A stretch of DNA of 64,000 bases from Amycolatopsis umgeniensis (GTDB lineage Bacteria; Actinomycetota; Actinomycetes; Mycobacteriales; Pseudonocardiaceae). Below are positions 5,668-16,081 of the stretch, in pieces. The stretch's first letter is position 1, and the number at the start of each line of letters is the position of its first letter. Where the stretch lies: positions 620,001 through 684,000 of the forward strand of contig NZ_JACHMX010000001.1 in assembly GCF_014205155.1 (NCBI RefSeq), read 5' to 3'. Below the pieces are notes generated by a model, which saw only the letters and a program-made list of their open reading frames with translations, did not search any database and was not told the DNA's origin. A program made the position numbers and the translations under genes.

Positions 5668-6728
5668 CCCGCGCCCGCGACCTGGGTGTCCCCCTGCCCG
5701 GCCGGACCGGCGAGCACAACGCGCTCACCGATGTCCCCGGCGTCGAGATCGGCTTCACGACGCTCGTCGAAGGCGAATCGGTGCGCACCGGCGTCACCGC
5801 CGTCCTGCCGCGCGGGCACGAGGATTTCGCCGTGCCCTGCGCGGCCGGGACGTACGCCCTCAACGGCAACGGAGAGATGACCGGCACCGCTTGGCTGGCC
5901 GAGACCGGCTCGCTGACCCTGCCGGTGCTGATCACCTCCACGCACGCCGTCGGCGCGTGCCATCGCGGCGTGATCGACTGGGTGGTGCGGGAACGGCCCG
6001 ACGTGGCCGCCGAATGGCTGCTGCCGGTGGTCGCGGAAACCTGGGACGGCTACCTGAACGACAGCACCGCGCCCACCATCGACGGTGGACACGCGATCGC
6101 CGCGATCGACGCCGCGCAGGCCGGGCCGGTCCGCGAAGGCTCCGTCGGCGGCGGCACCGGGATGACCTGTTACGGCTTCAAGGGCGGCAGCGGCACTTCC
6201 TCCCGTCTGGTGTCCTATGGGGACGATGAGTACACCGTGGGTGTCTTCGTGCAGGCCAACTTCGGGTCGCGCCGCGAACTCACCGTCGCCGGTGCGCCGG
6301 TCGGGCTCGAACTGGGCGCGGACAACCCGCTGGAGGAGGCCTGGACGGCGCCGCCGGGGGCGGGATCGGTCATCGTGATCGTCGGCACCGACGCTCCCCT
6401 GCTGCCCGGCCAATGCACTTCGCTCGCCCGCCGGGTCCCCCTCGGGCTCGCCCGCACCGGCACCACGGGCTCGCACTTCTCCGGCGACCTCTTCCTCGCG
6501 TTCAGCACGGCGAACGCGGGCGCGCTCACCAGCCGGTTCCCCCGGACCGAGGAAGCCGAATACGAGAACCTCCGGTTCGTCCCGTGGGGCAGGCTCGACC
6601 CGTTCTTCGAAGCCGTGGTGCAGGCGACCGAGGAAGCGGTGCTCAACGCGCTGTTCGCGAACGAGGAGATGACCGGCCATCGAGGCCACCGGGTGCCGGC
6701 GCTGCCGACGGCACGCTGGCGCGGCTGA
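5664..6728 (+). CDS. P1 (DmpA/BapA-like) family aminopeptidase
   Basis: The gene product (354 residues) has the hallmarks of the S58/P1 Ntn-hydrolase family: early LTDVPGVEIGFTT, NGNGEMTG, GSVGGGTGMTCYGFKGG, and QANFGSRR. The Gly201-Ser202 bond in NFG-SRR is the expected autoproteolytic site, making Ser202 the N-terminal nucleophile of the small subunit. Family members release D-amino acids, amides or beta-amino acids from peptides. It has no signal peptide, so it probably acts in the cytoplasm on material brought in by the neighbouring permease. Its 3' end overlaps the convergent SARP gene by 86 bp. Confidence 0.88.
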   Translation: MTRARDLGVPLPGRTGEHNALTDVPGVEIGFTTLVEGESVRTGVTAVLPRGHEDFAVPCAAGTYALNGNGEMTGTAWLAETGSLTLPVLITSTHAVGACHRGVIDWVVRERPDVAAEWLLPVVAETWDGYLNDSTAPTIDGGHAIAAIDAAQAGPVREGSVGGGTGMTCYGFKGGSGTSSRLVSYGDDEYTVGVFVQANFGSRRELTVAGAPVGLELGADNPLEEAWTAPPGAGSVIVIVGTDAPLLPGQCTSLARRVPLGLARTGTTGSHFSGDLFLAFSTANAGALTSRFPRTEEAEYENLRFVPWGRLDPFFEAVVQATEEAVLNALFANEEMTGHRGHRVPALPTARWRG

Positions 6729-9435
6729 CCAGCACCTTCGTGGGGCCCGGCCGGACAGGCCTCGCGCGGATCCGCGCGAGGTCGGTCCGGACCCGCGAGG
6801 CGCAGACCTCGTCGGAAAGCGAGTCGAGCAGTTCGAGCGCGCGGTGCAGGCACGACATCGCGCCGCGCCGGTCTTCGCGCCGCAGATGCAGTTGCCCGCG
6901 CCTGCGCAGGACGAGCGCCATGCGATGCGGGTCGTCCAATTCGGTGCAGAGCCGCGCCGCCTTGTCCAATTCCGCTTCGGCCTCGTCGAGCAGGCCGAGC
7001 TCCGCGCTCGCGACGGCGTATGAGGTGTGGGCGTGCGCCATGCCGAGGACGTCACCGATCTCGCTGAAGATGGCCAACGCCCGCCTCGCGGTCGTACGCG
7101 ATCTCCCGGGCTGCCCGGCCGATCGCGCGAGCACGCAGAGCCCGGTCAGTGCCCTGGCGCGTCCCGCGGGGTCGCCGATCCGTTCACTGATCCGGCACGA
7201 CTCGGTGAACGCCTCGCCCGCCTCCCGGAAGTCGTCCCGGTACAGGTGGATCTGGCCGATTCCGCGCAGCAGAGCGGCTTCCCCGCGTGCGCACCCCGAG
7301 GCCCTCGCCGCCTCGAGCGCGCTGCGATGGCATCGCGACCATTCCGCGTACAGTCCACTGTGGTCGAAGTACGACGCGGTCACCACGGCGAGCTCCCACG
7401 CGAGTTCCCCGAGCCCTGCGCCCGCCGCGTGCGAGACGGCGGCCTCCAGCGCGGGAAGTTCGCTCTGGAACCACGGAAGCGGTTCGGCCACCAGCTTTTC
7501 GTCGAGCGAGGTCCTGGCCGCGCTCCCCGGCTCGGGCCGCAACACGCTGCGGGACATCCGGTCCGCGGCCTTCTCCGCGAGCCAGAGCCACCCGCCGAGC
7601 ACCCGTTCGGTCGCGTCCGCGCGGGCCCGCTCCGGCTCCGCCGCGACCTCCTCGACGGCGAACGCGCGCAAGAGATCGTGCACGCGATAGCGGGGCGCGC
7701 CGGTCGCCCGGAGCACCGGCTGGACCATGTGCCGATGCCGCAGGTCTTCGAGCGCGCGGGACGCCACCTCGGGCTCGCCGTCGTCTGCCAGCGCGGCGGC
7801 CCAGACGGGGAAGTCCGCCGAGGGCAACAACCCCAGCCTGCGGAAGAGCCGCTGCCGATCCGGCGCCAGCTGCCGGTAGCCGAGCGAAAGACTGCCGCGG
7901 ACGGCGAGATCACCGGCACACAGCCAATCCAGCCGTCGTCGTTCGACGGAGAGTTCGACGGCGGCGTCGGCGAGCCGCCAGCCCGAACGGTCGCCGATCC
8001 GGCTGCCGACGATCCGCAACGCCAACGGGAGCCCGTCGCAGTGATCGAGAACCTGTTGGGCGGCAACGGGATCTTCGTCGATCTCGGTGAGCTTGGCGAG
8101 AAGGGCCTTCGCGTCGCCGGGCGGCATGACGTCGAGCGGGATCTGACGGCCGACTTCGAGCCCGGCCAGGACGAACCGGCTCGTGATGATCACCGCGCAG
8201 CCGCGACCGGCGGGCAGCAACGGCCGCAACTGGGCCTCACCGGCGGCGTCGTCGAGGACGAGCAGTACGCGGCGCCCGTGGACCAGGCTGCGGAACAGGC
8301 AGGCGCATTCGTCGATGTCTCGAGGGATCTCCTCGGTGGGGACGCCGAACGCGCGCAGGAATCCGGCGAGCACGGCTTCCGGCGACCGCGGCTCGGAAGT
8401 GGTCCCGCGCAGGGCCGCGAACAGCCTCCCGTCGGGGTACGCGGCCGCGACCCGATGCGCGAGCCGGATCGCCAGCGAGGACTTCCCGATCCCGCCCGCG
8501 CCGGTCAGCACCAGGACGGGCGGGAGGTCGCGGCCGTCGTCCTGGCGCAGTTCCCCCAGCAGATCCGCGATGAGCTCGTCCCGTCCGACGAAGTCCGGGA
8601 TACCCGGCGGCAACTGACTGGGCACGGTGGGCTCCTGGTACACGGGATACTCACGCGTGTCCTGGCCGTCGCGCAGGATCTCGCAGTGCAACGCGCGAAT
8701 CGCCGGTGACGGTTCGACACCGAGTTCGTCGACCAGCCTGCGGCGCCATTCGGTGTAGACGTCGAGTGCCTCGGCCAACCTGCCCGCGCGGGCGAACGCG
8801 GTCATCAACTGCCCGCAGACCCGTTCGCGGAACGGCGCTTCGGCGAGCAGGTCGCGTAGTTCGGGGATCAGCCGGTCGTGCTCGCCGAGCCCGAGATCGG
8901 CCTCGGCCCGGCCCTCCAGCGCCGCGAGACGCTCTTCTTCCCAGCGCGCGACGACCTCGGCCGCGGCCGGGATTCCGGCGAGCACCGGGCCGCGCCACAG
9001 TTCGAGCGCGTCCCGGAACCGTTGGGCCGCCTCACGATGGCAGTCACGGGCGAGTAGTTCGCGGGCCTGCGCGGCGAGACAGGTGAACCGGCCGGTGTCG
9101 GTCTCCTCCGGCCGCGCGTCGAGCACGTACGCCGCTCCCCTGGTCAGGATCGGCCCGCCACCCGGTGGTGAGCGCAGAGCCCGGCGCAGACCCGATATCA
9201 GCCCTTGGACCTGAACTTTCGCCGAAATCGGTGGTGTGTCGCCCCAAAGCTCGTCGATGATCCTGTCCCGGGGCACCGGACGGCCCGCCTCGACCAGCAG
9301 GAGCGCGAAGACCCGGCGCGCCTGTGGCGGGCCGAGCGGCAGGTCCGTGCCCTGCCGCTCGGCCGCGGGTTCACCGAACAAACGATAGAAATAGGCTGAT
9401 TCCCTCACCGGTTTCTCCCCCAGTATTCGAGACAC
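6643..9435 (-). CDS. SARP/AfsR-type regulator (BTAD, NB-ARC, TPR)
   Basis: This 930-residue protein has a winged-helix OmpR-like DNA-binding region (about 15-100), a BTAD domain (about 105-255), and an NB-ARC ATPase with Walker A GAGGIGKS at 312-319 and a Walker B-like VLLVLDDA. A helical TPR-rich C-terminal half follows (repeats with RA..LL.GIGQIHLYRDDFREAGEAF). Such proteins activate secondary-metabolite clusters. The nearest candidate target is the radical SAM/peptide locus about 1 kb upstream of its start. The last 28 codons overlap the convergent peptidase gene, and the tail is low-complexity (R/S/P/A-rich), so the true stop region may be recently extended. Confidence 0.88.
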   Translation of the reverse strand: MSRILGEKPVRESAYFYRLFGEPAAERQGTDLPLGPPQARRVFALLLVEAGRPVPRDRIIDELWGDTPPISAKVQVQGLISGLRRALRSPPGGGPILTRGAAYVLDARPEETDTGRFTCLAAQARELLARDCHREAAQRFRDALELWRGPVLAGIPAAAEVVARWEEERLAALEGRAEADLGLGEHDRLIPELRDLLAEAPFRERVCGQLMTAFARAGRLAEALDVYTEWRRRLVDELGVEPSPAIRALHCEILRDGQDTREYPVYQEPTVPSQLPPGIPDFVGRDELIADLLGELRQDDGRDLPPVLVLTGAGGIGKSSLAIRLAHRVAAAYPDGRLFAALRGTTSEPRSPEAVLAGFLRAFGVPTEEIPRDIDECACLFRSLVHGRRVLLVLDDAAGEAQLRPLLPAGRGCAVIITSRFVLAGLEVGRQIPLDVMPPGDAKALLAKLTEIDEDPVAAQQVLDHCDGLPLALRIVGSRIGDRSGWRLADAAVELSVERRRLDWLCAGDLAVRGSLSLGYRQLAPDRQRLFRRLGLLPSADFPVWAAALADDGEPEVASRALEDLRHRHMVQPVLRATGAPRYRVHDLLRAFAVEEVAAEPERARADATERVLGGWLWLAEKAADRMSRSVLRPEPGSAARTSLDEKLVAEPLPWFQSELPALEAAVSHAAGAGLGELAWELAVVTASYFDHSGLYAEWSRCHRSALEAARASGCARGEAALLRGIGQIHLYRDDFREAGEAFTESCRISERIGDPAGRARALTGLCVLARSAGQPGRSRTTARRALAIFSEIGDVLGMAHAHTSYAVASAELGLLDEAEAELDKAARLCTELDDPHRMALVLRRRGQLHLRREDRRGAMSCLHRALELLDSLSDEVCASRVRTDLARIRARPVRPGPTKVLVSRASVPSAAPAPGGLDGRSSPRSRTAR

Positions 9436-9497
9436 CCCTCAACGAGGGTGTCAGAAATATCCGAGGGCGGCGTCCGGCATTCGACGGAACAAACCGC

Positions 9498-9998
9498 TCA
9501 GCAGGCGCTGGCCGAAGTGTAGATCCGGAGCGAGGTCGCCTCGTCGTTGTCGCCGTTGCCCACGTAGGACGACCGCGCGCCCGCCTGCATGCAGCGACTG
9601 GTTCCGCTGCCGATGTTGTAGTACCACCGGGCGTCGACCCCACGCCGGTTGTACCAGGACGACATCTCGTCGTTGAATCCGTAATCGACGAGATTCTTCA
9701 GTCCCGCCGACTGGAACTGCAGTCGCCTGCCGTTGAAATCGCGGTTCTGCCACAAGCACACGTAGTTCGCGTCGCAATCACCAGGAGCCTTGGTCGAGAG
9801 CGACAGCGTGATCTCACCGCCGTTCCAGACGACCTCGTCCCCGGCGACCTTCCAGCCCGGAGCGAGCTTCGCCGCGTCGACGCCCGCGGCCTTCAGCGTC
9901 GCCGCGCCGTCCTGCGCGGCCGAAGCCGGCGCCGCGACGAGCACGGCCGCGACGGCGGCGGCCCCCAATGCCGTGGAAACGAACCGAAGAGTGCGCAT
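9498..9998 (-). CDS. Secreted peptidase inhibitor I36-like protein
   Basis: The protein has 166 residues with a Sec signal peptide (MRTLRFVSTALGAAAVAAVL...ASA, about 27 residues). The mature part contains CDANYVCLWQNRDFNGRRLQF, typical of the small beta/gamma-crystallin-like I36 (SMPI-type) metalloprotease inhibitors of actinomycetes, then further aromatic/Cys residues. The presumed role is extracellular inhibition of metalloproteases or a wall-associated function. It lies between the SARP gene and the radical SAM gene and is transcribed away from the latter. Confidence 0.75.
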   Translation of the reverse strand: MRTLRFVSTALGAAAVAAVLVAAPASAAQDGAATLKAAGVDAAKLAPGWKVAGDEVVWNGGEITLSLSTKAPGDCDANYVCLWQNRDFNGRRLQFQSAGLKNLVDYGFNDEMSSWYNRRGVDARWYYNIGSGTSRCMQAGARSSYVGNGDNDEATSLRIYTSASAC

Positions 9999-10364
9999 TT
10001 CTCCTCCTTGATGCCCGGCGTGCCCCGTGCACGCCGGGGATCAAGGTCCCGTGGGCCGCTGTGTGACGGCTAAGCAACCGGAAAGGGACCGGGGCGCTTC
10101 CGTATAGTGCCCCTGTTGACGTGCAGCCAATTCCGCATACGGCCGTCAGTCGATCATGCTCTTTCGAATTGCGCAGTAGCCCTTGCCCGACCTGGCGGAA
10201 AAGAGTGGTTCTCGATCATCGTTTACGCCTCATGCGACTGTTGCGCCAACCGAGTGTAATCGTTATCTCGGCATTGCGACGGGGTTCGCGGCGACACTAG
10301 CGTGCAAAGAGCAAGCCGACGGAGAAGCGGATCGATAAATCATCGAGCGCAGGGGGTTCTGTCC
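9999..10364. other. Divergent intergenic region upstream of the radical SAM gene
   Basis: These 366 bp lie between the divergent I36 and radical SAM genes, and I see no convincing gene. Base composition becomes more AT-rich towards 10120-10350, as expected for promoters. A weak promoter-like pair, TTGCGC (10241-10246) and TATCTC (10264-10269) with 17 bp between, points toward the radical SAM gene; this is a guess. Confidence 0.4.
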
Positions 10365-11393
10365 ATGAGCGCGCCTGCTCGGCCGACCAACGTCATTTGG
10401 GATGTCACCTACGCATGTCCCTTGCGATGCGTCCATTGCTATTCCGAATCCGGACGCCGCCCGACTCGCCAATTGAGCCTGGACGAACAATTGCGAGTAG
10501 TGGATTCCATCATCGAACTCCGACCGGAAATGGTGGCGCTGGCGGGCGGCGAACCACTCGTGGTGAAGGGGATATTCGAGGTCGCGGACCGCTTGTCGAA
10601 AGCGGGCATCCACGTCGTGTGCTACAGCGGCGGATGGCCGATGAAGCCGGACATGGCCCAGGAATTGATGCGGTGCTGCAACACGGTGACGATCAGCCTC
10701 GACGGCGCGACAGCGGAGGTGCACGACAAGATCCGCGGACGTGCCGGCTCGTTCGAGCGGGCCATGGAAGCCCTGCGGATCCTCGACGACGCTGTGGTCG
10801 CCGAGAGCCCGCCAGGGTTCGATTTCGGCATCGACACCGTGGCGGTACGCAGCAACTTCGAGAGTCTCGAGCAGCTGTGCACCTCGATCGCGCCCCGCTT
10901 CCCGGCACTGAAGTCACTCGCCATCGGTGCTGTCATCCCGGCGGGCCTGGCGAGCCGCTCGGGATTCGTGGAGCACGAACTCCTGTCCGAGTCCCAGGTC
11001 GAGCGGATGGGCGATCCCGCATGGGCCCGGCACTTGCAGTCACTCGCGCCACCATCGGTGACCGTCACCTGCACGGACAACCTCGACCTGCAGATGAATC
11101 CGGCCCAGGGGCTCGAAACCTTCACCGCATTGCAGATCGAGCCCGATGGCGAGGTGCGGGCGATGCCGATTTACGAAGGTACCGTCGGCAGCCTGCTCGA
11201 GGAGTCCGGCGAGACATTGTGGCGCCGCGCGATCGAACGATGGAGCCATCCCTTCGTCACCGAGACCCTTTCCGCTGTTCACACGGTCGAAGAATGGGCG
11301 GAAGCCACCCGGCGGATCGACTACCGTTTCGGGTCGGAATCCGTACGCGCCCGCATCGACCGGCGGCCACAATTCTCCGGCGTTCCCGGCTGA
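10365..11393 (+). CDS. Radical SAM enzyme, candidate RiPP maturase
   Basis: The encoded protein of 342 residues starts MSAPARPTNVIWDVTYACPLRC, with AGGGGG about 9 bases upstream. The radical SAM cluster motif CPLRCVHC (Cys18, Cys22, Cys25; CX3CX2C) is at the N terminus, followed by ALAGGEPLV and TISLDGA. The C-terminal part has the outline of a SPASM/twitch region (IEPDGEVRAMPIYEGTVGSLLEES..LW) but the expected auxiliary-cluster cysteines are missing (Met/Tyr instead). Peptide-modifying radical SAM enzymes install C-C, C-O or C-S links or epimerise residues. An 11-codon gene with a perfect Shine-Dalgarno follows 74 bp downstream, so that peptide is the likely substrate. A longer frame to 10302 lacks a ribosome binding site. 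Confidence 0.88.
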   Translation: MSAPARPTNVIWDVTYACPLRCVHCYSESGRRPTRQLSLDEQLRVVDSIIELRPEMVALAGGEPLVVKGIFEVADRLSKAGIHVVCYSGGWPMKPDMAQELMRCCNTVTISLDGATAEVHDKIRGRAGSFERAMEALRILDDAVVAESPPGFDFGIDTVAVRSNFESLEQLCTSIAPRFPALKSLAIGAVIPAGLASRSGFVEHELLSESQVERMGDPAWARHLQSLAPPSVTVTCTDNLDLQMNPAQGLETFTALQIEPDGEVRAMPIYEGTVGSLLEESGETLWRRAIERWSHPFVTETLSAVHTVEEWAEATRRIDYRFGSESVRARIDRRPQFSGVPG

Positions 11394-11466
11394 CACGGTA
11401 ATCGCGCGCAGCGCCGCGCCCCTCTGATGTTCCTGTTCTTTCACGGAGAAGAGGAGGTGAACGACC

Positions 11467-11502
11467 ATGGCTTACTGGCCCCCCACGACGGTCTCCCACT
11501 GA
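11467..11502 (+). CDS. Putative 11-residue RiPP precursor peptide MAYWPPTTVSH
   Basis: ATG at 11467 follows the complete anti-Shine-Dalgarno match AGGAGGTGA (11452-11460) at 6-base spacing, the best ribosome binding site seen in the window. The open frame is 11 codons (MAYWPPTTVSH) and a TGA. It sits between a radical SAM gene and an MFS exporter/M28 aminopeptidase pair, all on the same strand. Tyr3, Trp4 and His11 are residues often cross-linked in very short RiPPs. There is no room for a classical leader, so nearly the whole peptide would be core. An overlapping 50-codon frame (11427-11579) has no ribosome binding site and low-complexity content. Confidence 0.7.
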   Translation: MAYWPPTTVSH

Positions 11503-11530
11503 CCCAGTCAGTGCATACGACCGAGAAGCG

Positions 11531-11560
11531 CGATGCTCCCGCCCACGGGTGGGAGCATCG
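11531..11560 (+). promoter_or_regulatory. Strong hairpin between precursor peptide and MFS gene
   Basis: CGATGCTCCC (11531-11540) and GGGAGCATCG (11551-11560) form a perfect 10-bp stem with a 10-base loop whose ends can pair further. There is no T-run after it, so it is more likely an attenuator or an mRNA 3'-protecting structure than a simple terminator. Such a position would let the peptide be made in excess over the exporter. Confidence 0.7.
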
Positions 11561-11630
11561 CCACGGTGAATGCCACTAGCATCGAGGGAGTCGTCGGTAA
11601 TTCGATTGACGAAGATGAGCTGGGGGTCGG

Positions 11631-12866
11631 ATGCGCGCGTATCGGCATTTGTTCGGGTTCCGTGGTGTGCCACGGTTGGTCCTGGCGCTGATCGCGAGCA
11701 GGCTGGCCGCACCGATCCTCAATCTCAGCATGCTGCTGGCCATCGTCTCCACACACGGCTCCTACGCGGTCGGCGGCGTGGCCTTGACGGGATTCTCCCT
11801 CGCTCTCGCGGTCTGCGTGCCCCTGTCCGGACGATTGGTGGACCGGTTCCACCCCCGTCCGGTTCTGCTGGGAGTGCTCGCCGTCCACGCCATCGCCTAC
11901 GCGGCGGCGGTGATCGGCATGACGCAGCAGGCCCCCGCGTGGGTACTCGTGGCCGCCGCAGTCGCCTTGGGGGCGAGCACACCACCGTCGGCGCCGGTCA
12001 TCCGGTCCACGTGGCCCGCGATCGTTCCCGCCGAACACACCCGGACCGCCTACGCCTTGGACGCGGTGCTCAACGAGGTCATGGTGGTGACCGGGACGCT
12101 GCTGGTCTCGGCGCTCGTCGCGCTCGCCTCCCCCGTCGCCGCCGTGGCGGTGGCAGGGGCGTGCACGGTTCTCGGTGTGCTGACCCTGCTGACGGTTCCG
12201 ACGCCGCGAACACGGGCGAGCGCCGAACCGCCTGGTGAGGTGTCCCGATCCCGGCGGGCTCTCGGCCCCCTCGCCGATGGGCACGTCCGGGTGCTGCTGG
12301 GGATCACCGCCTTCGACATGCTGGCGTTCGGCTGCGTCGTCGTCGGGGTGTCCGCCGCGGCCGCGTCGGGCGGGAATCCCGGCCTGTCCGGCGTACTGCT
12401 CGGCGCCTACTCGGTCGGCGCGGTGGTCAGCGCGCTCGGATACGGCATGCGCCGTCGCGAGGCCCGCCCTCGCCGCCAGCTCGTCATGTTCCACGCCGCG
12501 TCCGCGGTACTGCTCGTCGCCACCGGGGTCGCGCCCGGACTCGTCCTGGCGGGCGTGGCCTTGCTCGCCGTGGGCCTGGTCAGTGGCCCCCGCGACACGC
12601 TGCACCAGATCGTGCTCGGCGACGTCGCTCCGCCCCGGCAACGGACCGAGGCGTTCGCGTGGATGAGCACCTTCATGTGGGTGGGCAACGGCATCGGCAC
12701 GGCTGTCGCCGGACAACTCGTGACCTGGAACGAAGGTGACCACACCACGACCTTCCTGGCGGCCGCGATCGCGGCCGCTGCCGCCGCGGCGTTCTCGTTG
12801 CTCCTGCGCTCCACCCTGCGCACCCGCGCGACCGCATCACCTGCCTCGGCCACTTCCCCGCGGTGA
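11631..12866 (+). CDS. MFS transporter, likely peptide/metabolite exporter
   Basis: The gene product (411 residues) has about 12 membrane segments and an MFS motif A-like loop (GRLVDRFHPRP) between segments 2 and 3. The start ATG at 11631 follows GGGGG at short spacing. It is downstream of the radical SAM gene and the 11-codon gene and 52 bp upstream of a secreted aminopeptidase gene, so it is best read as the export/self-resistance step of the same pathway. Its substrate cannot be read from sequence. Confidence 0.85.
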   Translation: MRAYRHLFGFRGVPRLVLALIASRLAAPILNLSMLLAIVSTHGSYAVGGVALTGFSLALAVCVPLSGRLVDRFHPRPVLLGVLAVHAIAYAAAVIGMTQQAPAWVLVAAAVALGASTPPSAPVIRSTWPAIVPAEHTRTAYALDAVLNEVMVVTGTLLVSALVALASPVAAVAVAGACTVLGVLTLLTVPTPRTRASAEPPGEVSRSRRALGPLADGHVRVLLGITAFDMLAFGCVVVGVSAAAASGGNPGLSGVLLGAYSVGAVVSALGYGMRRREARPRRQLVMFHAASAVLLVATGVAPGLVLAGVALLAVGLVSGPRDTLHQIVLGDVAPPRQRTEAFAWMSTFMWVGNGIGTAVAGQLVTWNEGDHTTTFLAAAIAAAAAAAFSLLLRSTLRTRATASPASATSPR

Positions 12867-12918
12867 TCCGCGGCGGCCGCCCACCGTCTCCACACTCCGC
12901 TGGGAGGAAACGATCCCC

Positions 12919-14343
12919 ATGAACCCCCGTCGGATTCTGTCCTCGCTCGCCGTCGGCGCCGTCCTGCTGACAACGGCCTCACCCGCGTCCGCGTCCGATC
13001 CCTGGTGGCTGGCGAAAGCACTGGCCTCCGAGGTGACCGGAACCAAGGCATGGCACCACTTGAAGGCGATCTCCGAAGCGACTCACGCGCACGGTGGCAA
13101 CCGCGTCTCCGGTTCCCCGGGATACGACGCGGCCGCCGGATACGTGACCAAGACCCTGACCGAAGCCGGTTACCGCGTGCGGCGCCAGGAGTTCACTTTC
13201 CCGGACTACGAAATGGTCGCGGAGAAGGCGACCGAAACGGCCCCGGTCAACAGGGCACTGCATCCGCTGCTGGCCTACTTCTCCGTCTCCACCACCGAAG
13301 CCGGCGTCTCCGCCGTGCTCGCCGAACCGGCGGGACGGGCGACCGGATGCACGCCGGAGGACTACACCGGCGGCGACGTCACCGGCAAGATCGTGCTCGT
13401 CGACGCCGGAGGCTGTGCCACTTCCCTCAAGCAGGTCATCGCCGCCGACGCCGGTGCGGCCGCCGTGGTGATGAACGTGAACTACACCAATCCCACCATG
13501 AACATCCGGCATCGGATCGTGCCGCCCGCCGACGCGCGTATTCCCACCGCCACCCTCACCCGGGCGGAAGCCCAACAGCTGAGGGCCGACGCGGCCAAGG
13601 GCGAAGTCTCACTTCACCTGGATCTGCGGAGCAGGCAGATCACCACCAAGGGATACAACCTCATCGCGGACACTCCTACCGGGGCCGAGGCCGACACGGT
13701 CGTCGTCGGCTCCCATCTCGACAGTGTCGACACCACGCCCGGAATGAACGACAACGCCGCGGCCGCCGCGATGCAACTGGAGATCGCGCGGCAGCTCGCC
13801 CCGCATGCGGGCAAGATCAAGAACCGGGTCCGATTCGCCTGGTGGGACGCCGAGGAGAAAGGTCTCGTCGGGTCCCAGTACTACGTCGATCGGCTCAGCC
13901 CCGAACAGCGGGCCGAAACCGGCCTGTACCTGAACCTCGAGATGATCGGCTCACCGAACTTCGCGCGCCAGGTCTACAACGGGCAGACGCCCGGAGGCCC
14001 CGCGCCTGAAGGATCGAAACAGATCACCAAGACCATCGGCGACTACTTCGCGGGACGGAACCTTCCCACCGTCGGGCTCGAACTCGACGACCGTTCGGAC
14101 CATTCCCCGTTCATCAAGGCGGGCATTCCCGCCGGAGGTGTCAACGCGGGCGCGGAAACCCTCAAACCGGCGGAGTGGGTGCCGCTGTTCGGCGGGACGG
14201 CGGGAGAAATGCTCGACCACTGCTACCACCAGTCCTGCGACACCCTCGACAACGTCAACCCGACCATCTTCGACCAGTTCGGCCGGGCCATCGCCTGGAC
14301 CACCGGCCGCTACGCCGTCGATGCCCTGAAGCCCACGGGCTGA
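12919..14343 (+). CDS. Secreted M28-family aminopeptidase with PA domain
   Basis: The encoded protein of 474 residues has a Sec signal peptide ending about ASPASAS (26). An inserted PA domain (about 125-235) precedes the M28 catalytic region: GSHLDSV (His266), GMNDNA (Asp278), WDAEEKG (Glu312/313), LNLEMIGS (Glu341 where Asp is usual in the Streptomyces griseus aminopeptidase type) and DRSDHSPF (His395). A C-terminal Cys pair (DHCYHQSC) may form a disulfide. GGAGG lies 11 bases before the ATG. It removes N-terminal hydrophobic residues outside the cell. In context it could trim the exported 11-mer, stopping before the Trp-Pro-Pro segment. Confidence 0.88.
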   Translation: MNPRRILSSLAVGAVLLTTASPASASDPWWLAKALASEVTGTKAWHHLKAISEATHAHGGNRVSGSPGYDAAAGYVTKTLTEAGYRVRRQEFTFPDYEMVAEKATETAPVNRALHPLLAYFSVSTTEAGVSAVLAEPAGRATGCTPEDYTGGDVTGKIVLVDAGGCATSLKQVIAADAGAAAVVMNVNYTNPTMNIRHRIVPPADARIPTATLTRAEAQQLRADAAKGEVSLHLDLRSRQITTKGYNLIADTPTGAEADTVVVGSHLDSVDTTPGMNDNAAAAAMQLEIARQLAPHAGKIKNRVRFAWWDAEEKGLVGSQYYVDRLSPEQRAETGLYLNLEMIGSPNFARQVYNGQTPGGPAPEGSKQITKTIGDYFAGRNLPTVGLELDDRSDHSPFIKAGIPAGGVNAGAETLKPAEWVPLFGGTAGEMLDHCYHQSCDTLDNVNPTIFDQFGRAIAWTTGRYAVDALKPTG

Positions 14344-14377
14344 TCGGTCGCTTCCCGGCCAGAGCCCGGGTCACTCC

Positions 14378-14536
14378 TCAGGCGCGGACGCGTTCGGCAC
14401 GGTGGGCGCGGATCCTCCTGCCCGCCCGGCGGGCTCGCTCGACCCACACGCTACGACCGGCCTTCAGCATCTGCTCGGTCCGGTAGTCCACCTCGGCCAG
14501 TACCTCGGCGAGCAGAACGTCGTTGCTGTTCATCAT
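14378..14536 (-). CDS. Small basic hypothetical protein (52 aa)
   Basis: A minus-strand frame starts ATGATG at 14536, after a GAGGGGA ribosome binding site, and encodes MMNSNDVLLAEVLAEVDYRTE... with an arginine-rich end (RRAGRRIRAHRAERVRA). Codon use is typical of the genome (third-position G/C), so it looks real. It converges on the aminopeptidase gene. I do not recognise the family; the amphipathic, basic character could suit a small regulatory or nucleic-acid-binding protein, which is only a guess. Confidence 0.5.
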   Translation of the reverse strand: MMNSNDVLLAEVLAEVDYRTEQMLKAGRSVWVERARRAGRRIRAHRAERVRA

Positions 14537-14636
14537 CGTTTCCCCTCAGGAACTCACTACCTCGTTCGGTAATGACCAGATTCGTCCTGAGGGGCAGCCT
14601 TGGGCATCGGGTGATCACCTACGTACAGCGGCGGAT

Positions 14637-14684
14637 CGACCCCTTACCCTCGCTCGCTCCCTGCTCGAGAGCCGTAAGGGGTCG
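14637..14684. terminator. Inverted repeat downstream of DUF6892 gene
   Basis: CGACCCCTTAC (14637-14647) and GTAAGGGGTCG (14674-14684) are perfect 11-bp arms separated by 26 bases. The repeat lies just beyond the stop of the minus-strand gene ending at 14691 and upstream of nothing on the plus strand, so a termination role is likely. Confidence 0.5.
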
Positions 14685-14690
14685 CCCGGG

Positions 14691-15107
14691 TCACAGCCAG
14701 TCCGCCTCGATGCCTCGCGTCCGCAACGTCTCCAGAGCCTCGTCGTCGCCCGTGTAGAGCAGTGTCATCGACTTCAGATTGGGAAAGTGCTCGACGTCGG
14801 CGAACTCGTCGACGTCGAACAGTCCGTCCTCGCCATCCCAGTTCGGCGCGATCTCCAGGTAGATCTCGTTGCCGCCGTCCATCTCGATCTCGGTGACCTT
14901 GTCCGCGAGCTCGGCGGGAACCTCGAACGCGTCGAAGTAGGCCAGGGCCTCGGGTACCGCCTCGACGCTCCCGCCGTCGAAGGTGAAACCCTGCTCGGCG
15001 GCGTACTCCCGCAGGCTGAACCTCGGCAGGAGTTCCTGGTTGTACATCAGCTCCTGGACGACGGCGAGCTTGAAGTTGCGGTCGGCGAACCGGATCGGCT
15101 GATTCAT
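14691..15107 (-). CDS. DUF6892-like protein
   Basis: This acidic protein of 138 residues begins MNQPIRFADRNFKLAVVQELM, with a repeated FD/ED-rich middle (DGLFDVDEFADVEHFPNL). The pattern 'F.D.NFKLAV...LMY..ELL' matches what I know as the DUF6892 group, which is uncharacterised. There is no signal peptide. It sits between pdxS and the small basic gene, reading in the same direction as pdxS, and is separated from pdxS by a palindromic hairpin. Confidence 0.65.
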   Translation of the reverse strand: MNQPIRFADRNFKLAVVQELMYNQELLPRFSLREYAAEQGFTFDGGSVEAVPEALAYFDAFEVPAELADKVTEIEMDGGNEIYLEIAPNWDGEDGLFDVDEFADVEHFPNLKSMTLLYTGDDEALETLRTRGIEADWL

Positions 15108-15112
15108 GCCGA

Positions 15113-15148
15113 AACCCTATAGACGGTGACGACACCGCCTATAGGGTT
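15113..15148. terminator. Palindromic hairpin between pdxS and DUF6892 gene
   Basis: AACCCTATAG (15113-15122) pairs with CTATAGGGTT (15139-15148), and inside them CGGTG pairs with CACCG, giving a nearly continuous stem with a 4-base loop. It lies 19 bp after the pdxS stop (minus strand) and just before the next start, so it may terminate pdxS and/or act as an operator for the DUF6892 gene. Confidence 0.6.
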
Positions 15149-15166
15149 CGAACACACCCTCGGCTG

Positions 15167-16081
15167 CTACCAGCCGCGCTCGGAAAGACGGTGAGGCTCG
15201 GGCACGTCGTCGACGTTGATGCCGACCATGGCCTCGCCGAGACCGCGCGAAACCTTCGCGATGACGTCCGGGTCGTCGTAGAACGTGGTGGCCTTGACGA
15301 TCGCCTCGGCGCGCTGCGCGGGGTTGCCGGACTTGAAGATGCCGGAGCCGACGAACACGCCCTCGGCGCCGAGCTGCATCATCATCGCGGCGTCGGCCGG
15401 GGTCGCGATACCGCCCGCGGTGAACAGCACGACGGGCAGCTTGCCCTTCTCCGCGACCTCCTTGACGAGGTCGTACGGCGCCTGGAGTTCCTTCGCCGCA
15501 ACGTAAAGCTCGTCCTCGGGCAGCGAGGAAAGGCGGCGCAGCTCGGCGCGGATCTTGCGCATGTGCGTGGTCGCGTTCGAGACGTCGCCGGTGCCGGCCT
15601 CGCCCTTGGAACGGATCATCGCCGCGCCCTCGTTGATCCGGCGCAGCGCCTCGCCGAGGTTGGTCGCACCACAGACGAAGGGCACGGTGAAAGCCCACTT
15701 GTCGATGTGGTTCTCGTAGTCGGCCGGGGTCAGCACCTCGGACTCGTCGATGTAGTCGACGCCGAGCGACTGCAGCAGCTGAGCCTCGACGAAGTGGCCG
15801 ATGCGGGCCTTCGCCATCACGGGGATCGAGACGGTCTCGATGATGCCGTCGATCAGGTCCGGGTCGCTCATCCGGGCGACACCGCCCTGGGCGCGGATGT
15901 CCGCGGGGACCCGCTCGAGCGCCATCACCGCGACGGCGCCGGCGTCTTCGGCGATCTTCGCCTGCTCGGCGGTGACCACGTCCATGATCACACCGCCCTT
16001 GAGCATCTCCGCCATCCCGCGCTTGACCCGGGCGGTGCCGGTGAGCGAGGTGGTGGCCGTGTTCGTGGAGTCGTCAGACAC
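15167..16081 (-). CDS. pdxS: Pyridoxal 5'-phosphate synthase lyase subunit PdxS
   Basis: This 304-residue TIM-barrel enzyme is very highly conserved: [17 protein letters not shown] (Lys/Asp of the active site), [30 protein letters not shown], and [11 protein letters not shown]. It condenses ribose 5-phosphate, glyceraldehyde 3-phosphate and ammonia (from PdxT) to pyridoxal 5'-phosphate. The frame continues upstream to 16204, but the GTG at 16081 ([11 protein letters not shown]) matches the family N terminus. Its partner pdxT is about 13 kb downstream, an unusual separation. Confidence 0.95.

Follow-up and report, generated by a model that had tools for sequence, protein, structure and literature searches.

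An 11-codon open reading frame beside a radical S-adenosylmethionine enzyme gene of Amycolatopsis umgeniensis is a candidate leaderless peptide precursor

We analysed a stretch of 64,000 nucleotides from Amycolatopsis umgeniensis (contig NZ_JACHMX010000001.1, positions 620,001 to 684,000; the window in the following), which contains a small gene cassette around a very short open reading frame (ORF). The first gene of the cassette (10365-11393, + strand) encodes a radical S-adenosylmethionine (SAM) enzyme of 342 aa (Pfam PF04055, E 3.1e-22). It is followed by an ORF of 11 codons (11467-11502 from ATG to stop, +) with the predicted product MAYWPPTTVSH, likely a leaderless precursor peptide and designated mini-ORF here. 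The Shine-Dalgarno sequence AGGAGGTGA (11452-11460, +) is separated from its ATG by a 6-base spacer, and similar sequences precede the mini-ORFs of relatives. A hairpin with 14 unbroken pairs (11530-11561, +; about -30 kcal/mol, no T run) lies 3' of the mini-ORF. Next come a gene for a transporter of the major facilitator superfamily (MFS; 11631-12866, +), predicted to be an exporter, and a gene for a PA + M28 peptidase (12919-14343, +), which has a signal-peptide-like N-terminus by eye and is predicted to trim the peptide. An initial annotation had described the radical SAM gene, the 11-codon ORF with its full Shine-Dalgarno sequence and the MFS and M28 genes as a candidate minimal system for a ribosomally synthesized and post-translationally modified peptide (RiPP). 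All of these elements were found in place and on one strand.

A TGA codon is present in frame nine bases 5' of the ATG of the window mini-ORF. This ruled out that the mini-ORF is the 3' end of a longer, leader-bearing ORF. Within the 64-kb window no other ORF of 8-14 codons had a strict Shine-Dalgarno sequence, if a nested pair near 27.9 kb is disregarded.

Close relatives of the enzyme were present in 3 of 80 genomes of the genus, namely the own genome, A. regifaucium (83% identity) and A. xylanica (63%), and the next match had an E value of 2e-25. With a threshold of E 1e-60, members of the enzyme family were detected in 13 of 390 genomes searched within the taxonomic family, 21 of 392 Streptomyces genomes, 30 of 341 genomes from another actinobacterial family and 5 of 394 genomes drawn across the class. 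Plasmid copies were also looked for, and the plasmid collection gave no match at E 1e-40. From named genome contigs, 76 enzyme loci were taken. We dropped 61 locus ids, which were either missing or redundant (identical over the first 300 residues, or motif unmatched, e.g., L107), and 100 enzyme rows were kept as a non-redundant set after removal of duplicates.

An ORF of 10-12 residues with an aromatic residue followed by Pro near its start adjoined the enzyme gene in 11 of the 100 family loci, and a twelfth case was tentative. Five of the firm loci (clade A) have the mini-ORF downstream of the enzyme gene on the same strand and encode MAYWPPTTVSH, MAYWPPTKVSH, MAFWPPAKGTHA and twice MAWPSWPEGIR. 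The peptides MAYWPPTKVSH of A. regifaucium and MAFWPPAKGTHA of A. xylanica are encoded directly 3' of the enzyme gene. MAWPSWPEGIR stems from two near-identical genomes of one genus, and an MFS gene (62% identical to the window MFS) comes after it. At the other six loci (clade B) the mini-ORF is divergent from the enzyme gene and is followed by a gene for an ATP-binding cassette (ABC) transporter in all six cases. Clade B comprises MAYPPTG[VL]GR from three genomes of one genus, MMYPPPTTGGN and MMYPPPTVGTGR from two Streptomyces, and MAFPPTTLGGTR from Kutzneria. A mini-ORF was present with all five clade A and all six clade B core enzymes whose DNA was examined. The mini-ORF of L090 did not pass the strict filter for a Shine-Dalgarno sequence. 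It was identified by eye, and its stem was measured afterwards. The tentative twelfth peptide, MALPKLDPRKTW at locus L135, starts 15 bases past the enzyme stop codon.

All 11 firm mini-peptides carry the aromatic-Pro motif near the start, for which they were partly selected, and none of the 12 mini-peptides contains Cys. Trp4-Pro5 is the kept feature; A. xylanica has Phe in place of Tyr3, and no peptide from outside Amycolatopsis has His11. Of the three residues initially considered as modification sites, Trp4 was therefore retained as part of the Trp4-Pro5 segment, while Tyr3 and His11 were both variable among the mini-peptides. As in RiPP systems in general, a conserved gene for an encoded precursor lies beside the gene for the presumed modifying enzyme. 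The usual, if not universal, leader or follower was not seen, the ORFs having just 10-12 residues.

A further common element was found 3' of the mini-ORFs. An unbroken stem of at least 13 pairs directly followed the stop codon in 9 of 11 firm loci, and at the other two (L128 and L129) the stem was long but bulged. Stems of 13 pairs were reached by 1 of 17 background ORFs and by 10 of 1000 random stretches. The hairpin of the window is terminator- or attenuator-like; it was not listed by a terminator scan that requires a T run. A known RNA element at the mini-ORF was rejected, as an Rfam search of window positions 9400-15200 gave no match.

The early filters for mini-ORFs required the aromatic-Pro motif, and a motif-blind count therefore served as a test. 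For this we collected ORFs of 8-14 codons with a strict Shine-Dalgarno sequence at the 100 enzyme loci and asked for the form M-x(0-2)-aromatic(1-2)-Pro. This form was present in 9 of 12 distinct ORFs near the enzyme gene (within 350 bases) versus 0 of 17 distinct ORFs elsewhere (22 before copies were removed; Fisher p 2e-5, with loci treated as unrelated here and below). The near ORFs without this form were those of L073, L091 and the tentative L135.

Pairwise comparisons gave a mixed picture of conservation. Between the window and L035, 34 of 37 columns were identical in the mini-ORF, 23 of 96 in the upstream stretch and 52 of 60 in the hairpin region just downstream. Identity in the mini-ORF and downstream of it was 31/33 and 41/64 for L130/L131, and 31/39 and 41/60 for L194/L195. 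The window and L036 differed by a synonymous change at both Pro codons. Since pairwise identities extend past the mini-ORF, we regard ORF, Shine-Dalgarno sequence and hairpin as one conserved block at the level of the DNA, which by itself is no proof of coding constraint.

The neighbors of other family members, as judged from representatives, included ABC transporters and RamC_N-kinase-LanC proteins, which are class III/IV lanthipeptide synthetases. The precursors beside these sister enzymes had LELQEL/ALQLLEE-like leaders and cores opening with the aromatic-Pro motif. A filter that used leader features only yielded 63 precursor candidates at 51 of 100 loci and missed leader-bearing precursors that were present at further loci. 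The motif [WYFH]P was found in 62 of these 63 candidates, and the exception was not precursor-like. Among 59 distinct precursors the motif was WPC in 34, YPC in 13, FPC in 5, HPC in 3, WPP in 2, and WPE and WPT in one each. The leader-bearing cores nearest to the 11-mer were AWPPTTICLCC and AWPPPTACSCC. The cores AWPPTTICLCCVQD and AWPPPTACSCCSTF were closest to the 11-mer by eye, and their enzymes share the tree region of the mini-ORF enzymes. Homologs without a mini-ORF had initially been named as an observation that would speak against the system. Most of the distant homologs indeed lack it, yet in most of these cases a longer precursor is present whose core carries the same motif.

In the enzyme tree both mini-ORF clades fall inside a group of 37 rows (support 97/83) that also contains leader-bearing members. 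The mini label required 2 changes on the tree, and none of 500 shuffles was as low (shuffled mean 10.5). This label was assigned to 11 rows, with L135 in and L090 out. Of the remaining rows, 62 were labelled as having a full precursor (in some cases, L086 and L108 for example, this is doubtful), and 27 were unlabelled, including L037, L040, L044-L047, L049 and L084, which do have leader-bearing precursors. A lanthipeptide synthetase match was obtained at 64 of 100 loci, a lower bound owing to contig ends, and at 0 of 12 mini-ORF loci with the tentative one counted (Fisher p 1.2e-6). Lanthipeptide synthetases were looked for near the mini-ORF loci and not found: 3 of 11 mini-ORF genomes had no RamC_N gene, and elsewhere the nearest one was about 54 kb from a mini-ORF. 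Because the tree sets the mini-ORF lineages among leader-bearing members, one or two events probably removed the leader together with the lanthipeptide synthetase, leaving a peptide that consists of the core only. A single origin of the mini-ORF state is possible.

Some leader-bearing loci deserve mention on their own. Locus L083:5049 has a leader-bearing precursor without Cys, MPDILELQALEEEAPTLWPTTNLDAAD, although a synthetase gene comes after it, and may represent an intermediate state. At L133 (G186:C7) a family member is accompanied by three consecutive leader-bearing precursors (WPCRITI and WPCQVTIET among their cores), and another contig of the same genome carries a leaderless system. 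The 59 distinct leader-bearing precursors (L088, L099 and others) are highly diverse past the aromatic-Pro-Cys motif and constitute unstudied candidates for lanthipeptide-plus-radical-SAM systems. In the Streptomyces loci L043, L048 and L199, which contain family members, no precursor was found. A gene for a penicillin-amidase protein precedes the enzyme gene in L043, and L199 has a similar-looking one.

The iron-sulphur cluster site of the window enzyme is a CX3CX2C motif at residues 18-25, and Cys 18, 22 and 25 were the only invariant cysteines in the 100 enzyme rows. A SPASM-like C-terminal segment, EPDGxVRxMPIYEGTVG, was retained but had no Cys (degenerate SPASM). Cys 105, 172 and 236 were common to the five clade A enzymes. 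C172, which we considered as a hydrogen donor for epimerisation, was present in all 12 mini-ORF enzymes and in 82 of 100 rows overall. In the AlphaFold2 model (mean pLDDT 86) the barrel begins at residue 9. Since the radical SAM core starts there, the enzyme has no room for an N-terminal RiPP recognition element (RRE). On the enzyme contig the nearest PqqD-family (RRE) match lay more than 100 kb away, although divergent RREs could escape, and an RRE of the PqqD type was also not found near the mini-ORF loci. The best solved structural relative was the RiPP maturase SkfB (TM 0.65 by query length), which was also the best sequence match. The small-molecule enzymes DesII, BlsE and viperin ranked high in the fold search as well, and the structure search gave no hint to the substrate past the SkfB-like fold. 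The mycofactocin maturase MftC was the best NCBIfam match, yet with 105.8 bits it stayed far below the equivalog cut-off of 265 bits, and no MftB-type (PqqD-family) gene was near. No NCBIfam model exceeded its cut-off among the matches listed (25 of 53).

Since mini-ORF lineages are placed among leader-bearing relatives with the same core motif, we consider it quite probable that the 11-mer is a conserved substrate of the enzyme in its entirety, without a leader, and a stripped-down relative of lanthipeptide precursors, with modification at Trp4-Pro5, export by the MFS protein and trimming by the M28 peptidase. This agrees with the initial proposal of a leaderless substrate candidate with an exporter-like gene adjoining. 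From the DNA sequence we infer the following course of events. The mini-ORF would be translated from its own strong Shine-Dalgarno sequence, and the hairpin 3' of its stop would likely yield more peptide than exporter. Met1 would probably be removed, because residue 2 is Ala, which as a general rule permits removal. The enzyme likely recognises the core directly via the aromatic-Pro motif that is common to the mini-peptides and to the longer precursors of the sister enzymes, and would install a radical change at or beside this motif. Thioether chemistry of the sactipeptide or ranthipeptide type was ruled out because the mini-peptides contain no Cys, and the modification could be redox-neutral, for example an epimerisation. 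The MFS protein would likely export the product, with an ABC transporter in its place in the other lineage. Aminopeptidases cleave X-Pro bonds poorly, and the M28 aminopeptidase, which would trim the N-terminus, is therefore expected to halt before Trp-Pro.

Several observations weigh against this reading. It is drawn from sequence throughout, and a peptide has yet to be detected. Unlike many peptide-modifying radical SAM enzymes, the enzyme has no additional iron-sulphur cysteines. The position of the mini-ORF relative to the enzyme gene is not constant (either downstream and on one strand with it, or upstream in divergent orientation), and MALPKLDPRKTW of L135 has neither the motif nor a strong hairpin. 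Neither a mini-ORF nor a leader-bearing precursor was found at 17 of 100 loci, or 20 when the doubtful L054, L086 and L108 are counted, and some of these loci are short. The mini-ORF was conserved above its surroundings in some pairs, but not in all: identity in the mini-ORF was 22/36 for the window and L036 with 38/60 just downstream, and 31/33 for L131/L132 with 59/60 downstream.

Among the accessory genes, an exporter gene accompanies the mini-ORFs of both clades, which favors our reading: an MFS gene was located beside the mini-ORF in 4 of 5 clade A loci and an ABC gene in 6 of 6 clade B loci. The MFS proteins of the window and L128 were 62% identical over 374 columns. However, A. xylanica had no MFS match in a 19-kb region, and the M28 gene directly follows the mini-ORF there. 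Export by the MFS protein, as proposed initially, is plausible. The M28 gene was present in 3 of 5 clade A loci and 0 of 6 clade B loci, being missing with MAWPSWPEGIR and in the ABC lineage, and four Amycolatopsis genomes that do not have the enzyme carry close M28 relatives (58-65%). We therefore rejected the M28 peptidase as a specific marker of the system, and the proposed trimming of the peptide by this protein appears weaker than export. The four enzyme-free M28 relatives adjoin large genes, which in two of the four cases looked polyketide-synthase-like by eye.

We also weighed other explanations for the mini-ORF. It could encode a regulatory leader peptide, with ribosome pausing at Trp-Pro-Pro controlling the hairpin and the downstream exporter, while the enzyme has another substrate. 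Hairpin and mini-ORF together are compatible with such a leader as well, the strong hairpin lies directly after the stop, 10 of the 11 firm mini-ORFs are followed by a transporter gene, and Pro-Pro can slow ribosomes. But the downstream gene varies (MFS, M28 or ABC) while the association with the enzyme family stays, the motif of the peptide recurs in the cores of the longer precursors that accompany sister enzymes, and the searched part of the window (9400-15200) holds no Rfam element. We regard regulation of this kind as unlikely. Even less probable to us is that the mini-ORF is a real peptide gene and the enzyme acts elsewhere, for example on a small molecule, the peptide being unmodified or modified by another enzyme. 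The high rank of DesII, BlsE and viperin and the single set of invariant cluster cysteines would fit this view, but SkfB as top match in fold and sequence and the precursor peptides adjoining the wider family argue against it. In addition, no further modifying enzyme stood out among the genes called at the mini-ORF loci, although the family scan covered part of these genes.

Finally, very short ORFs are common, and the near ORFs of L073 and L091 without the motif look like chance occurrences. That the mini-ORF of the window arose by chance next to unrelated genes is contradicted by its recurrence with motif, Shine-Dalgarno sequence and hairpin in 11 of 100 loci and by the motif-blind background, in which none of 17 ORFs had the motif. 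We consider this explanation extremely improbable.

The comparison with known systems is based on excerpts of open-access articles. Bottromycin is made by a different set of enzymes. Its precursor, as described there, also has no canonical leader and loses the N-terminal Met to a dedicated aminopeptidase, but has a follower peptide, which is absent here (PMC10885120). Biarylitides have the smallest precursors reported so far according to the text used (PMC12951456). In biarylitides and myxarylin residues 3 and 5 are cross-linked and the first two residues serve as leader (PMC12951456). They resemble the present system in that a minimal precursor gene adjoins one oxidative enzyme gene, but that enzyme is a P450 instead of a radical SAM enzyme, and no P450 was present among six window proteins scanned. 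For triceptides, SPASM-containing radical SAM enzymes are described that link position i, occupied by Trp, Phe, Tyr or His, with the residue at i+2 (PMC11002830). The same four residues (W, Y, F, H) precede Pro in the present family, where an aromatic-Pro-X motif is present, but the cysteines for SPASM/Twitch auxiliary clusters are missing. Class III lanthipeptides such as noursin, for which a LELQEL leader is given (PMC10206099), correspond to the sister enzymes' loci in their RamC_N-kinase-LanC synthetases, LELQEL/ALQLLEE-like leaders and aromatic-Pro core starts. In contrast, the window cassette has no synthetase, leader or Cys and hence no lanthionine; a LanKC synthetase and a core Cys for lanthionine or labionin were each found in 0 of 12 mini-ORF loci. 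A large survey of lanthipeptide precursors mentions that radical SAM genes located in such clusters may act in secondary modification, and names 30 residues as a lower bound for candidates (PMC7268733). Genes for 10-12 residues would therefore be missed by this survey.

Searches of open-access PubMed Central articles, judged by listings and the openings of abstracts, showed no account of the leaderless form of this enzyme family; subscription papers and preprints lay outside the scope. We conclude that these candidates for leaderless radical SAM RiPPs are a real, conserved variant that is undescribed within the literature searched. As the likely whole substrate, the 11-mer would be unusually small for a radical SAM enzyme. 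Leader peptides are generally regarded as a handle for RiPP enzymes and for the discovery of precursors. The present family occurs in two states, with leader and lanthipeptide synthetase or with neither, so that the purpose of the leader and the route of its loss can be tested, and a substrate of 10-12 residues is cheap to synthesise, which makes the chemistry directly testable. More tentatively, and with rather more doubt than belief, we consider a naked-core class of RiPPs. Here radical SAM enzymes of one lineage, in which just one cluster site is visible, would, without leader, RRE or synthetase, read the aromatic-Pro motif of a 10-12-residue peptide and install a strained aromatic-Pro-X cross-link without auxiliary clusters. 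Such a class would have arisen from class III lanthipeptide precursors cut to their cores.

The surroundings of the cassette contain further genes. The initial annotation had the cassette inserted between pdxS and pdxT. The cassette does lie between a pdxS-like motif (15439, -) and a pdxT-like motif (1657, -), which presumably mark these genes, but the interval spans 13.8 kb and also includes other genes. Among them is a gene for a BTAD/NB-ARC/TPR regulator (SARP-like; 6643-9435, -), possibly the regulator of the cassette. A regulator with 79% identity to it adjoins the cassette of A. regifaucium, and none was found at the other mini-ORF loci. A gene of the peptidase inhibitor I36 family (9498-9998, -) lies between the regulator and enzyme genes and was likewise not found at other mini-ORF loci. 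A DUF6892 protein is encoded (14691-15107, -) in the interval from the M28 gene to the pdxS-like gene. An ORF of approximately 50 codons at about 14380-14533 (-), read by eye, is preceded by a Shine-Dalgarno-like stretch.

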